Source: Sphingobacteriaceae bacterium (lineage in GTDB: Bacteria > Bacteroidota > Bacteroidia > Sphingobacteriales > Sphingobacteriaceae). Taken from it: 64,000 nt of DNA. The translations under genes were made by a program, and so were the position numbers. Below the pieces are notes generated by a model. It had not been told where the DNA came from. It did not search any database and saw nothing but the letters and a program-made list of their open reading frames with translations. Shown piece by piece: positions 8,446-63,966 of this stretch (the first letter of the stretch is position 1; each line of letters opens with the position of its first letter). The stretch spans positions 124,001 through 188,000 of the forward strand of contig CANHGR010000006.1 in the NCBI GenBank assembly GCA_947460875.1, given 5' to 3'.

Positions 8446-8515
8446 AAGTTATAGCTTGTAAGTTATAAGTTCAACACGCAAGCCTTACTTACAACGTATA
8501 ACTTATTAATTATAA
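8446..8515. repeat. Heptamer-period element, rpoA-rplQ gap
   Basis: Ten successive 7-mers keep phase across this gap, starting with AAGTTAT (8446, again exactly at 8460) and moving to complementary words such as CTTACAA and ATTATAA. A 9-bp perfect inverted repeat (TAAGTTATA at 8459, TATAACTTA at 8497) joins the two halves. The element fills most of the 143-bp rpoA-rplQ gap. Confidence 0.7.
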
Positions 8516-11162: not shown

Positions 11163-11246
11163 TTTTAATTTACAATTTTCGATTTACGATTTACGATTCC
11201 TGAACTACTCCAAAATCGTAATCCTAAAATCCTATTCTAAAATTCT
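11163..11246. repeat. Heptamer-period element, rpmJ-rpsM gap
   Basis: Twelve consecutive 7-mers fit in exact phase from 11163. The first five end in AT (for example TTTCGAT, TTACGAT, TTACGAT); later ones are complementary in character (AAAATCG, AAAATCC, AAATTCT). An 8-bp perfect inverted repeat (TTACGATT at 11191, AATCGTAA at 11214) links the halves. It fills the whole gap and touches the rpmJ stop codon. Confidence 0.75.
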
Positions 11247-16413: not shown

Positions 16414-16469
16414 TTTTTGATTTAAGATTTTAGATTTTCCGGAGAAACGTAGATCTAAAATCTCGGTTT
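16414..16469. repeat. Heptamer-period element with 11-bp inverted repeat, rpsN-rpsH gap
   Basis: Phase-locked 7-mers run from 16414 (TTTTTGA, TTTAAGA, TTTTAGA) and later in complementary form (GTAGATC, TAAAATC). An 11-bp perfect inverted repeat, AGATTTTAGAT at 16425-16435 and ATCTAAAATCT at 16453-16463, would form a hairpin with a 17-nt loop in the operon mRNA. Confidence 0.75.
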
Positions 16470-42317: not shown

Positions 42318-42926
42318 ATGTACCTGGTAAAATCCCCTTTCTGGCTAAGATGGTTAAATCCGAACCTAATCTGGCACAAAAGCCGGGAAGAAAAACGGAT
42401 TTTTCTCACCTTTGACGACGGCCCTATTCCTGTTGTTACACCATTCGTATTAGAAACTTTAAAAAGCTTTAATGCCAGGGCTACGTTTTTCTGTATTGGA
42501 GATAATGTTCGGAAATATCCAGATCTGTTTAAACGTGTAGTAAATGAAGGACATCGAATTGGAAATCATACTTTTAACCATTTGAATGGCTGGAAAACAG
42601 CTGATACTATCTACTTAGAAAATGTAAAAAAATGTGCCAATTTAGTAAACTCGAATCTATTTCGTCCACCTTACGGCCGTGGCAAAAGATCTCAATACTC
42701 AATACTCAATACTCAATACTCGATTATCATGTGGGATGTACTGAGCGGCGATTTTGACGAGGACTTAAAACCGGAGAGATGTCTCGAAAACGTGCTTAAA
42801 CATACAGAAAATGGCTCTATAGTGGTTTTTCATGACAGCTTGAAAGCGTTTCCTCGGGTAGAATATGCATTGCCGAGAGCGTTGGAGGTCTGGAAAGCCA
42901 AAGGGTATTCTTTTGAAACGCTTTAG
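42318..42926 (+). CDS. Polysaccharide deacetylase (NodB homology domain)
   Basis: A 202-residue de-N-acetylase. Motif 1 LTFDDGP (Asp33, Asp34), motif 2 HRIGNHTFNH (His84, His88 metal ligands), motif 3 FRPPYGR (116-121), motif 4 MWDVLSGDFD and the late FHDS (His172) are all present. There is no signal peptide, but the N-terminal FWLRWLNPNLIW is hydrophobic. Codons 125-135 are written by four tandem copies of the heptamer CTCAATA plus three bases, in place of ordinary family sequence of about the same length. Likely acts on a cell-surface or intracellular amino-sugar polymer. Confidence 0.88.
   Translation: MYLVKSPFWLRWLNPNLIWHKSREEKRIFLTFDDGPIPVVTPFVLETLKSFNARATFFCIGDNVRKYPDLFKRVVNEGHRIGNHTFNHLNGWKTADTIYLENVKKCANLVNSNLFRPPYGRGKRSQYSILNTQYSIIMWDVLSGDFDEDLKPERCLENVLKHTENGSIVVFHDSLKAFPRVEYALPRALEVWKAKGYSFETL
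42691..42721. repeat. Heptamer tandem repeat (4 x CTCAATA + 3 nt) inside the deacetylase gene
   Basis: Four perfect copies of CTCAATA at 42691-42718 then CTC. Because 7 is not a multiple of 3, gain or loss of one copy would shift the frame before motif 4. The same word starts the heptamer run at 45545. Confidence 0.9.
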
Positions 42927-42990
42927 AAATGACTGAGGTGCTCATCAGTTTGGGCAAATTGAATAATTTATAAAAATAGCTTAACATGCT

Positions 42991-43090
42991 GCGTTAAGGA
43001 CAGAAACGGAATCCTTTTCAGCATCGCGTGCAGCGCAGGGGAAAAGATACAGTGGATCACCCCTACCTTTTCGGGCACCGCCCAATCAAA
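42991..43090 (+). ncRNA. Candidate structured RNA-like intergenic element (Bacteroidota type)
   Basis: A GC-richer island inside an AT-rich gap. CTTTTC (43014-43019) pairs with GAAAAG (43041-43046) around a GC-rich interior (CATCGCGTGCAGCGC), followed by AGTGGATCACCCC. From memory, Bacteroidota intergenic regions carry a similar widespread element with xATCCTTTT...AAAAGAT...AGTGGAT text; the Flavo-1 RNA of Rfam is one candidate. Neither identity nor strand is certain. Confidence 0.4.
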
Positions 43091-43132
43091 CAGAAAACTG
43101 AAGACTTAAAACTTAAAACCCTAGAGTCCCAT
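43091..43132. repeat. Heptamer-period element
   Basis: Six 7-mers in exact phase: CAGAAAA, CTGAAGA, CTTAAAA, CTTAAAA, CCCTAGA, GTCCCAT. It directly follows the structured element upstream of aconitase. Confidence 0.6.
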
Positions 43133-43177
43133 CCCCCTGTTTAGATTTTTTCCAAATAAAAATTGGGCTTCAACAAA

Positions 43178-43208
43178 TTTAATCGCTACCCCTTTTTTCG
43201 TAACTTCG
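43178..43208 (+). promoter_or_regulatory. Putative promoter of aconitase
   Basis: TTTA (43178-43181), a 19-bp spacer, and TAACTTCG (43201-43208) match TTTG-19-TAnnTTTG with one change in each box. It lies 47 bp upstream of the aconitase ATG. Confidence 0.55.
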
Positions 43209-43255
43209 CAAAAATTAGTTTACTGCGTTAACACCATAAAAATCAATATTAAGCT

Positions 43256-45523
43256 ATGGCATTCGACTTAGAAATGATCCGGAAAGTATACAGCAATTTA
43301 GGTAGCCGCATTGATGCCGCCCGTAAAGTAGTTGGAAAACCCCTCACACTGACTGAAAAAATATTATACGGACATTTATGCGAAGGCGAGGCTAAGGAAG
43401 CTTACGGACGTGGTGTTTCGTACGTCGATTTTGCACCGGACCGAGTAGCGATGCAGGATGCAACAGCGCAAATGGCATTACTACAGTTTATGCAAGCCGG
43501 AAGGCCTATTGTAGCCGTTCCATCAACAGTGCATTGCGACCACTTGATACAGGCTAAAATTGGCGCAGATGCAGATCTTGCAACTGCAAACAATCAGAAT
43601 AAAGAAGTTTATGATTTCCTCGCATCAGTTTCAAATAAATATGGTATAGGGTTCTGGAAACCGGGTGCAGGAATTATCCACCAAGTTGTTTTAGAGAACT
43701 ATGCTTTTCCTGGGGGCATGATGATCGGAACCGACTCGCATACTCCGAATGCGGGCGGATTAGGAATGATCGCGATTGGAGTTGGCGGTGCCGATGCTTG
43801 CGATGTCATGGCAGGACTCGCTTGGGAGCTTAAATTCCCCAAGCTGATTGGTGTGAAATTAACCGGAAAGTTATCAGGATGGTCCTCAGCAAAAGACGTC
43901 ATTCTTAAGGTTGCAGGTATCCTCACTGTAAAGGGTGGAACAGGAGCTATCGTCGAATATTTCGGCGAAGGTGCCCGATCTCTCTCTGCTACCGGAAAAG
44001 GGACAATCTGTAACATGGGCGCTGAAATTGGTGCTACGACTTCTATCTTCGGATACGATGAAAAATCAGAAATATATCTTAGGGGAACTAAACGAAGCGA
44101 TATAGCAGATCTTGCTAACTCGATAAAAGGACATCTTACCGGTGATGATGAAGTATATGCAAATCCCGAAAAATATTTTGATCAGGTTATAGAAATCAAC
44201 CTTTCTGAACTTGAACCTCATGTAAACGGTCCGTTTACACCGGATTTGGCCTGGCCGATATCTAAATTTGCTGCGGCTGTGAAAGAACATAACTGGCCGG
44301 CAAAACTAGATGTAGGCCTTATAGGATCATGCACCAATTCTTCTTATGAGGATATTACCCGTGCCGCGTCACTTGCTCAACAAGCAATTGATAAAAAGCT
44401 TGTTGCGAAGTCAGAATACACCGTAACTCCTGGTTCTGAGCAGGTTAGATATACCGTTCAACGGGATGGCTACTTGGACACCTTTGAAAAAATCGGCGGT
44501 GTAGTACTGGCCAATGCATGCGGACCATGTATTGGTCAGTGGGCGCGCCATGGCGCTGAAATGCAGGAAAAAAACTCAATCATTACTTCTTTTAACAGAA
44601 ATTTTGCAAAAAGGGCAGATGGAAACCCAAACACCCATGCGTTTGTAGCTTCACCTGAAATTGTTACTGCTTTGGCTATTGCCGGAACCTTGTTGTTCAA
44701 TCCATTAACAGACACTTTAACAAACGAAGATGGGGAACAGGTAAAATTCGACGCACCGGATGGATTAGAAATGCCAATCAAAGGCTATGCGGTAGAAGAT
44801 GCCGGCTATCAGGGTCCTGCAGAAGACGGCAGTGCAGTTAGCGTTCTCGTCAACCCTTCGTCAAGCCGACTTCAATTGCTGGATCCATTCCCTATTTGGG
44901 ATGGCAAAAACCTTATCGGTTTAAAACTTTTAATTAAGGCAAAAGGGAAATGCACAACCGATCATATTTCAATGGCCGGACCTTGGTTGAAGTTCCGCGG
45001 ACACTTAGATAATATATCTAATAATATGCTCATCGGCGCGATTAATTTTGCAAATGAGACTGCAGATCATGTTAAAAACCAAATAACAGGTGAATATGGC
45101 CCCGTTCCGGCAACGCAACGAGCCTATAAAGCTGCAGGAATTGGCACAATAGTAGTAGGGGATGAAAATTATGGAGAAGGATCATCACGAGAACACGCAG
45201 CGATGGAGCCTCGTCACCTTGGCGTTCGCGTAATCTTAGTAAAATCATTTGCTAGAATTCACGAAACAAACCTAAAGAAACAAGGAATGTTGGGCATAAC
45301 GTTTGCAGATCCAAACGACTACACTAAAATTCAGGAAGATGACACAATTGACATCATCGGACTCACTGAATTTACTCCGGGCAAACCGCTAACCGTTGTA
45401 CTAAATCATGCGGATGGCACGACCGAATCATTCCCAGTAAATCATACTTACAATGAACAGCAAATTGAGTGGTTTAAGGCTGGTGCAGCGTTGAATATTA
45501 TTAGGTTGAAGGGGGGAATGTAA
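43256..45523 (+). CDS. Aconitate hydratase (mitochondrial-type)
   Basis: A 755-residue aconitase converting citrate to isocitrate. The [4Fe-4S] cysteines are C359 ([10 protein letters not shown]), C422 and C425 ([11 protein letters not shown]). The swivel domain shows [19 protein letters not shown]. Length and sequence style match the mitochondrial-type enzymes used by Bacteroidota rather than AcnA or AcnB of E. coli. A heptamer-period element follows the stop. Confidence 0.96.
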
Positions 45524-62049: not shown

Positions 62050-63966
62050 TTACTTAGTTTCGTCTTTTACTTCTTCAAAATCAACATCGGTTACTGAATC
62101 AGCATTTTCTGAAGATGGTCCATTAGCATTTTGCTCTCCTTGCGGATTAGCACCTGCTCCATCGCCACTCGCTTTATACATCTCTTCGGATGCAGCAGTC
62201 CAAGCAGTTTGAAGTTCATTTTGAGCTACCTCAATCGCTGCAAAGTCTTTTGCTGCATAAGCATCTTTAAGCTTCTTCAAGGACTCCTCAATAGGCGCTT
62301 TTTTATCAGCAGAAACCTTGTCGCCATATTCTTTCAACTGTTTTTCAGTCGAGAAGATAAGAGCATCGGCACCATTCAGCTTATCAACTTCTTCTTTCGC
62401 CTTTCTATCTGATTCAGCATTCGCTTCAGCTTCATCTTTCATCTTCTTGATCTCATCATCCGTTAAACCTGACGATGCTTCAATTCGAATTTTTTGCTCC
62501 TTTCCGGTGGCTTTATCTTTTGCTGATACATGTAGAATGCCATTTGCATCAATATCAAAAGTTACTTCAACTTGTGGGATGCCACGAGGAGCAGGCGGTA
62601 TTCCATCTAAATGAAAACGTCCAATTGTCCGGTTTTGAGGCGCCATAGGGCGCTCACCTTGAAGGATATGAATTTCTACAGAAGGCTGATTATCAGAAGC
62701 GGTAGAAAAAGTTTCTGACTTCTTTGTTGGGATAGTCGTATTAGATTCGATCAACTTAGTCATCACGCCCCCCATCGTTTCAATCCCTAAAGAAAGCGGG
62801 GTAACATCGAGAAGAAGTACATCTTTCACTTCACCGGTCAACACACCACCTTGTATCGCTGCTCCGATTGCGACCACCTCGTCAGGATTCACACCCTTAG
62901 ATGGTTCCTTACCGAAAAAGCTTTTTACCGCGTCCTGGATAGCAGGAATACGAGTCGAACCACCAACTAAGATAATTTCATCGATATCTGTCGTTTTTAA
63001 ACCCGCGTTTTTTAGTGCCGACTTACAAGGCTCAATAGTTCTTTTAATCAGGCTATCTGCAAGTTGCTCAAATTTAGCGCGTGATAATGTTCTAACAAGG
63101 TGCTTTGGCCCATTCTGATCAGCAGTAATATATGGTAAGTTGATTTCCGTCTGAGTAGAACTAGAAAGCTCAATTTTAGCTTTTTCAGCAGCTTCTTTTA
63201 AACGTTGAAGCGCCATCGGATCTTTCACTAAATCCATCCCATTTTCACTTTTAAATTCATCAGCAAGCCAGTCAATTATCACTTGATCAAAATCATCGCC
63301 ACCAAGATGAGTATCTCCATCAGTTGATTTTACTTCAAAAATTCCATCGCCGAGCTCTAAAACTGATACGTCATGCGTGCCACCACCACAGTCGAAAACT
63401 ACAATCTTCATATCTCTATGAGCCTTGTCAAGTCCATATGCCAATGCAGCAGCGGTTGGCTCATTGATGATTCGCTTTACGGTCAAACCCGCAATTTCCC
63501 CCGCTTCTTTGGTTGCTTGACGCTGTGCATCATTAAAATAAGCTGGCACTGTAATGACTGCTTCGGTTACCTCGTGACCAAGGAAATCTTCAGCCGTTTT
63601 CTTCATCTTCTGAAGGATCATTGCAGAAATTTCTTGCGGAGTATATTTACGGTCGTCAATTTGAACTCTAGGAGTATTATTGTCGCCTTTCACCACAGTG
63701 TAAGGCACTCGTTTCATTTCTTTTTCAACCTCATTGAAAGCATTACCCATAAATCTCTTTATAGAGTAAATGGTTTTCGTTGGATTTGTTATCGCTTGAC
63801 GCTTGGCCGGGTCGCCTACCTTCCGCTCCCCATTTTCAACAAATGCAACGATAGAGGGGGTTGTACGCTTACCCTCGGCGTTTGCTATCACAACAGGCTC
63901 ATTGCCTTCCATTACAGCCACGCATGAGTTTGTTGTTCCTAAGTCAATACCAATAATTTTTGACAT
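62050..63966 (-). CDS. dnaK: Molecular chaperone DnaK (Hsp70)
   Basis: A 638-residue Hsp70. [20 protein letters not shown] starts the ATPase domain (1-380) with [18 protein letters not shown] (the usual DLGGGT reads DCGGGT) and [11 protein letters not shown]; the substrate-binding domain (about 390-510) and helical lid follow, ending in a Gly/Asn-rich linker and the EEVKDE-like acidic tail ([10 protein letters not shown]). Works with DnaJ and GrpE, which are not in the window. The promoter lies beyond the 34 bases visible upstream. Confidence 0.98.

Follow-up and report, generated by a model that had tools for sequence, protein, structure and literature searches.

We found that positions 42991-43083 (+) of the window, by which we mean the whole 64 kb stretch of Sphingobacteriaceae DNA analysed here, are best read as a full-length but diverged or decayed copy of a dispersed repeat of the Flavo-1 type, and that Flavo-1 itself is best read as a BIME-like repeat at the level of DNA. 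We give this reading a probability of about two in three. As judged from sequence, such repeats would fold through five covarying helices and spread in the manner of the BIME/REP repeats of other bacteria, with their pairing probably kept in DNA, for example in a hairpin or cruciform that a DNA-binding or mobilising protein recognises.

An earlier note, made from the letters alone, had described a GC-rich island in AT-rich surroundings at 42991-43090, with a CTTTTC/GAAAAG stem and an AGTGGAT tail, and had likened it to Flavo-1. Our analysis places the element at 42991-43083, so that these bounds were nearly exact. Its G+C content is 0.559, compared with 0.312 and 0.320 in the flanking intergenic sequences and 0.405 across the window. 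CTTTTC (43014-43019) and GAAAAG (43041-43046) form a stem and AGTGGAT lies at 43051-43057, as the note had said. Searched as text, AATCCTTTT..AAAAGATnnAGnGGA had a single match in the window, and 100 shuffles gave no match at all. The search with Rfam models that the note had proposed gave a divided answer. At gathering scores the window had no match, which is one of the refuting signs that the note had named, but with relaxed thresholds the best match in 42900-43260 was Flavo-1 (43002-43057, model positions 14-63 of 76, 22.8 bits, E 0.014). The window copy is therefore not a formal member of RF01705 (Flavo-1), whose gathering cut-off of 42 bits is too strict for so diverged a copy. Two other matches near the element, snoZ157 (E 8.2) and UCA1 (E 7.2), were rejected as chance. 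From 17 copies of relatives, with the window copy left out, we built a longer model, R1, of what we call type A. Using cmsearch, R1 matched the window at 42991-43083 (+) over model positions 1-92 with 40.1 bits and E 5e-7, a full-length match and the sole one in the 64 kb. The likeness to Flavo-1 was thus upheld by both models.

Type A and type B are labels coined in this analysis, and copies were sorted between them by eye. Type A reads GCGTKARGGAT..AAGCGG..ATCC-TTTT[loop]AAAAGAT..AGCGGA.AGCCYGACC[hairpin]GG.MACGCCC and type B begins with a TTTAAACC head. The fold consists of five short covarying helices, with 20 pairs, around a variable loop. On the forward strand of the window, the R1 alignment pairs the 5' arm of the outer stem P1, GCGTT (42991-42995), with the 3' arm ACCGC (43077-43081); four of its five pairs are kept and one is a U-C mismatch, and P1 covaries in relatives. 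In the inner stem P3a, AC (43006-43007) faces GT (43052-43053), and the family's commonest G-C pair has become A-U by changes on both sides. The core stem joins ATC-C-TTTT (43011-43018, with a bulged C at 43014) to AAAAGAT (43042-43048), and a small 3' hairpin, CCT..GGG (43066-43075), keeps two C-G pairs and one U-G. In total, the window copy keeps 18 of the 20 pairs of the R1 structure as standard pairs, 17 of them Watson-Crick and one G-U, and has two broken. The folding energy of the element is ordinary (z -0.16, with 83 of 200 shuffles folding at least as well); single-sequence folding being uninformative here, the structure of the window element is shown by comparison with relatives alone.

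In the relatives the core helices of Flavo-1 do covary. Across 17 hand-chosen type-A copies, window excluded, from which the structure itself was drawn (alignment A2), 97.3% of pairs are standard over the 20 pairs, and both sides have changed at 11 of the 20, which none of 500 shuffles equalled. Two model-aligned sets, which were fitted to the structure and hence lean towards it, gave double changes at 18 of 20 pairs (A3, 72 copies, window included) and at 17 of 20 (A6, 56 copies), each with 0 of 500 shuffles; the two sets have a few copies in common. In the number of further pair types the alignments did not exceed their shuffles, of which 456 of 500 (A1) and 494 of 500 (A2) reached the same number.

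The earlier note had offered a repeat as one option, proposed a BLAST search of the same genome for copies and named a lack of further copies in this or related genomes as what would speak against its element. Copies were found in both. The own genome holds two good copies, that of the window and a better one on contig C5 (53.0 bits with R1), and one weak match on contig C1 (16.5 bits, E 4.2 with R1), part of which is also a BLAST match to the window copy (E 2e-4). In this small genome with few copies, the window copy would be fading, with two of 20 pairs broken and one G-U wobble. At E <= 0.01 the Flavo-1 model found matches in 22 of 41 genomes (the own genome and 40 relatives), and in ten of the 22 at least one match exceeded the cut-off; the 14 control genomes had no match at E <= 0.01. 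Weak matches mean little, because with E <= 10 allowed, 10 of the 14 controls match the model too. The highest copy counts at E <= 0.01 were 55 in genome G013, 48 in G001 and 29 in G033. Nine genomes of the genus of G033 carry 26, 21, 11, 3, 0, 21, 2, 5 and 4 copies at E <= 1e-5. In the genus of G013, four genomes that each form a single contig carry 67, 96, 68 and 68 matches (299 in all).

The repeats of relatives are mostly about 80-170 nt long and occur singly, as inverted pairs and in tandem arrays, so that the many intergenic copies and inverted pairs by which REP/BIME repeats are recognised are present there. Among the matches listed (150 of the 299), 22 neighbouring pairs lie less than 3 kb apart, 21 of them on the same strand with a spacing of 208-646 nt. 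Tandem arrays were found with units of 333 nt (locus L233, 1517-2426), 372 nt (L232, 1314-2708) and, in a third case, 384 nt. By eye, the 333- and 372-nt units each hold one reversed and one forward Flavo-1 element, and the 333-nt units, from genome G057, have inverted outer ends resembling TTTTTGGAAAGCA. At one site in the genus of G013, before a gene that we take to be clpB, the element is common to G013, G051 and G073 and a remnant is left in G053, while it is not recognisable in the aligned sequences of G096, G101, G070, G076 and G056. Neither this site nor any other gave a precise single-insertion empty site, which speaks against the repeat reading. As a separate observation, the orthologous copies L190 (G073) and L135 (G013) have core stems of wholly different paired sequence.

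In the window, the element lies between a polysaccharide deacetylase gene (PF01522, 42318-42926, +) and the aconitase gene acn (PF00330 and PF00694, 43256-45523, +), in a gap of 329 nt. Elsewhere the gap between these genes measures 67-188 nt in six cases without the element, 419 nt in G021, also without it, and 470 nt in G014, which has it. When R1 was run over 30 acn loci from the 41 genomes, an element upstream of acn was found in two, the own locus and that of G014, where it is co-oriented with the gene; weak matches occurred downstream of acn in L093, where there is a type-B copy, and within acn in L085. We also surveyed deacetylase loci in named genomes of Pedobacter, Mucilaginibacter, Hufsiella and their kin, 80 in all. 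In 47 of them acn follows on the same strand within the locus, across gaps of 133-2014 nt in which another ORF may lie, and R1, a type-A model that may miss type B, found the element in the gap of three (L293, L297 and L317), each time co-oriented with acn. With 2 of 30 and 3 of 47 loci, the element is not conserved with acn as a leader RNA would be, and its link to acn is positional.

Between the element and acn there is a motif pair shared with other acn upstreams. An operator-like box, TTTAGATTTTTTCCAAA, stands at 43140-43156 (+), and a -7-like promoter element, TAACTTCGC, stands at 43201-43209 (+), starting 118 nt past the end of the element; the -7 consensus of Bacteroidota is TAnnTTTG. 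We compared 75 acn upstreams, among which species may overlap: 47 from the deacetylase loci followed by acn, and 28 from the set of 30 acn loci, with that of the window among them. A TTTAGA..CCAAA-like box was present in 30 and a TAnnTTCG motif in 59, and the two followed each other in this order in 26 of 75, compared with 1 of 1500 mononucleotide shuffles, by patterns that were written after viewing the sequences. The box in the window is an imperfect palindrome, TTTAGAnnnnTTCCAAA, and perhaps the true regulatory site of acn. Because this conserved promoter module lies downstream of the element, transcription of acn likely starts beyond it, and the element would be upstream of the acn promoter, probably outside the transcribed part of the gene and not in its leader.

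Another explanation does not exclude the repeat and adds a function to it. The folded DNA could serve as a binding site through which the promoter downstream of it, here that of acn, is tuned, with type A selected in the 5' regions of genes. We consider this unlikely, yet it keeps a real chance on the evidence of gene context. In G001, G013 and G033, 67 of 71 copies lie between two called genes (two are inside an ORF and two at an edge): 18 in divergent gaps, 16 in convergent gaps and the rest in co-directional gaps, where 17 sense and 16 antisense copies show no clear orientation preference. Type A gave 21 sense and 14 antisense copies in co-directional gaps, which is not significant (67 of 81 copies placed, with nine inside an ORF and five at an edge). 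In the genus of G033, where 53 of 66 type-A copies could be placed, the gap was divergent for 23, convergent for 3 and co-directional for 27, compared with 9.2, 9.2 and 34.5 expected from background intergenic length (p 2e-6; because the background is small, with some 13 kb of intergenic gaps, and the gene calls came from a simple script, we take from this and the following comparisons the direction of the bias and not the p-value). Thinning related loci to one per pair left 19, 2 and 18 of 39 (p 1e-6), and G033 alone had 12, 1 and 10 of 23 type-A copies. This preference of type A for divergent gaps fits a promoter role.

Orthologous sites were compared as well. Twenty-five locus pairs from different species of one genus have the coding neighbourhood in common on at least one side, and in six orthologous locus sets that were compared the element was kept to a varying degree. 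L139 and L332 share a site that lies upstream of a gene, and there both sides of pairs in the outer and second stems have changed with pairing kept, which supports a promoter-side role and would also fit selection for function. In addition, the copies upstream of acn in L080, L293, L297 and L317 are all co-oriented with it. Against a promoter-side role, the copies of G013, mostly type B, lie the other way, with 2 divergent, 9 convergent and 13 co-directional compared with 8.1, 4.3 and 11.6 expected (p 0.007), G001 has no gene-context bias (p 0.61), and just the three syntenic acn loci of the 47 carry a copy in the gap.

Rfam files Flavo-1 as 'Gene; sRNA', and a small non-coding RNA that is transcribed and acts in trans is a further alternative, which we regard as improbable. 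Strong covariation in Flavo-1-type copies, accompanied by conserved unpaired residues, speaks for it. An RNA stem tolerates G-U pairs and does not tolerate A-C, whereas a DNA stem has less reason to distinguish them. Among 123 distinct copies (A3 and A6 pooled) with 2278 cells, we counted 2162 Watson-Crick pairs, 29 G-U, 41 A-C and 46 others, so that G-U was no commoner than A-C. The TPP riboswitch of relatives, taken as a control (23 loci, the best of a longer match list, with pairs set by hand), gave 15 G-U and 4 A-C of 321. The two families differ in G-U versus A-C (p 0.0045) and in the share of G-U among standard pairs (1.3% for Flavo-1 and 4.8% for TPP, p 0.0002), as measured with one control family that offers 19 informative cells and has one helix also poor in G-U. 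Three tRNAs gave 3 G-U and 0 A-C of 61 pairs, too few to serve as a control. Any bias of the alignment method should be towards G-U and thus opposed to what we found. Since there is no preference for G-U, we infer that pairing is kept at the DNA rather than the RNA level, and the Flavo-1 relatives appear to evolve more like folded DNA than like RNA.

The tens of divergent copies per genome, some of them tandem or inverted, also argue against a small RNA. In the literature the picture is mixed. Weinberg et al. (2010), who discovered Flavo-1, rate it in their Table 1 as 'probably' RNA, probably not cis-regulatory and probably no switch (PMC2864571). A review table places it among the most abundant sRNA families with no function stated there (PMC9029176). 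The transcript map of Flavobacterium psychrophilum shows no consistent strand: as described in that study, Flavo-1 matches are indistinctly sense or antisense to transcribed regions, many lie outside them, and they gave no real functional clue (PMC9723704). None of the open-licence papers searched was seen to describe Flavo-1 as a DNA repeat.

If the family is a repeat, its copies could be REPs of the classical kind that a RAYT (TnpA_REP) transposase mobilises, and this we hold to be very unlikely. Such a mover is suggested by the distribution of copies within the family, since at least three Flavo-1 copies are present in seven of nine genomes with a class-2-like Y1 gene and in one of 16 without; this co-occurrence may only mark repeat-rich genomes. 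We scanned 50 Y1 loci, comprising 30 (L039-L068) and 20 of class 2 (L159-L178) and representing 46 distinct genes as L059-L062 repeat four, with the Rfam model, R1, a pattern or by eye. At E <= 0.1 to 1, 48 of the 50 had no element. The two exceptions, L051 (33.7 bits) and L172 (34.5 bits), offer the RAYT explanation limited help: in L172 about 550 nt, including another ORF, separate the element from the Y1 ORF, and in L051 the element lies beside an enzyme of a different subclass, with the Y-Q-HH signature that is given for subclass 1.2 (PMC6006769). In these relatives, then, the element does not flank RAYT genes as a REP would, and many class-2 Y1 genes in L159-L178 are instead flanked by other hairpin repeats, such as CGGATTTGCAATCCG, as seen by eye. 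Furthermore, no Y1 transposase gene (PF01797) was found at E <= 1e-5 in the own genome, nor in G033 and G039 with their 29 and 9 copies.

Single-strand transposition might leave a replication-strand bias. We found none (84 of the 150 matches listed, of 299), the origin being taken from dnaA and genome lengths rounded. A Pfam scan of 88 of the 131 nearest ORFs gave 134 families; none of the 25 commonest occurred in more than three members, and no transposase was among them. Thus, the Y1 search of the own genome, the 50 Y1 loci of relatives and the 25 commonest neighbour families revealed no mobilising enzyme, and a RAYT as the mover is not supported.

The least probable explanation is a riboswitch-like element in the acn leader, a cis-regulatory RNA of acn having been among the options of the earlier note: the element does share its strand with acn and ends 172 nt short of the start codon, but the operator-like box and the -7-like motif between them point to a transcript that starts downstream, and only one of 29 related acn loci has an element upstream of acn, the other 28 having none at R1 E <= 1 (a model that may miss type B, with a few loci cut short).

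The heptamer run that the same note had seen directly after the element is real. It is made of 3.7 copies of AAAACTT with 84% matches at 43094-43119 (+). A perfect heptamer array, 4.4 copies of CTCAATA at 42691-42721, lies within the deacetylase gene, where the protein reads SQYSILNTQYSI. Among the tandem repeats of the window, six rows out of 23 have a period of 7 (8446-8471, 11168-11198, 16414-16438, 42691-42721, 43094-43119 and 62431-62445). Heptamer repeats have been reported from some Bacteroidetes (PMC4679880).

Returning to the element as a dispersed Flavo-1-type repeat, we compared it with known systems. It has in common with RF01705 the core of AGCGG, (A)ATCC-TTTT / AAAAGAT and AGCGGA, the covarying helices and the occurrence in Bacteroidota. 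Type-A copies differ in being extended by the outer stem GCGTK/MACGC and the tail GG..MACGCCC, before which the Rfam match stops in many loci, and the behaviour of a dispersed repeat without G-U preference sets the family apart from RF01705 as an RNA. MITE-like composite units are another general kind of repeat used for comparison. The likeness to them lies in the inverted ends near TTTTTGGAAAGCA on the 333-nt units of G057, by eye; such ends were not seen at the type-A copy of the window, and no autonomous partner was found. With BIME/REP repeats and their RAYT enzymes, as these are described in PMC6006769 and PMC3733652, the family shares intergenic folding repeats in many copies, inverted pairs and tandem arrays; it differs in that no Y1 gene was found in the own genome (E <= 1e-5) and in that the RAYT-like genes of relatives mostly go with other hairpins. 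STAXI is an RNA-motif candidate for which the authors raised structured single-stranded DNA, although they judged RNA likelier because of its UUCG loops (PMC2864571); its sequence is unrelated to Flavo-1 as far as seen.

We tentatively suggest, at clearly less than even odds, that Flavo-1 is, instead of an RNA family, a phylum-wide class of folded-DNA repeats of Bacteroidota with a mover or keeper other than a RAYT, whose subtypes occupy opposite contexts, type A on the promoter side and type B at gene ends, and of which the window copy is a relic in a small genome. The folded-DNA look of the Flavo-1 family looks like the part worth following. If its pairing is a property of DNA, sRNA annotations of Flavo-1 matches mislead, and one would then ask by which enzyme or DNA-binding protein the fold is read. 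Counting G-U against A-C is a cheap test, with which other 'orphan' Rfam motifs could be told apart as RNA or DNA elements.
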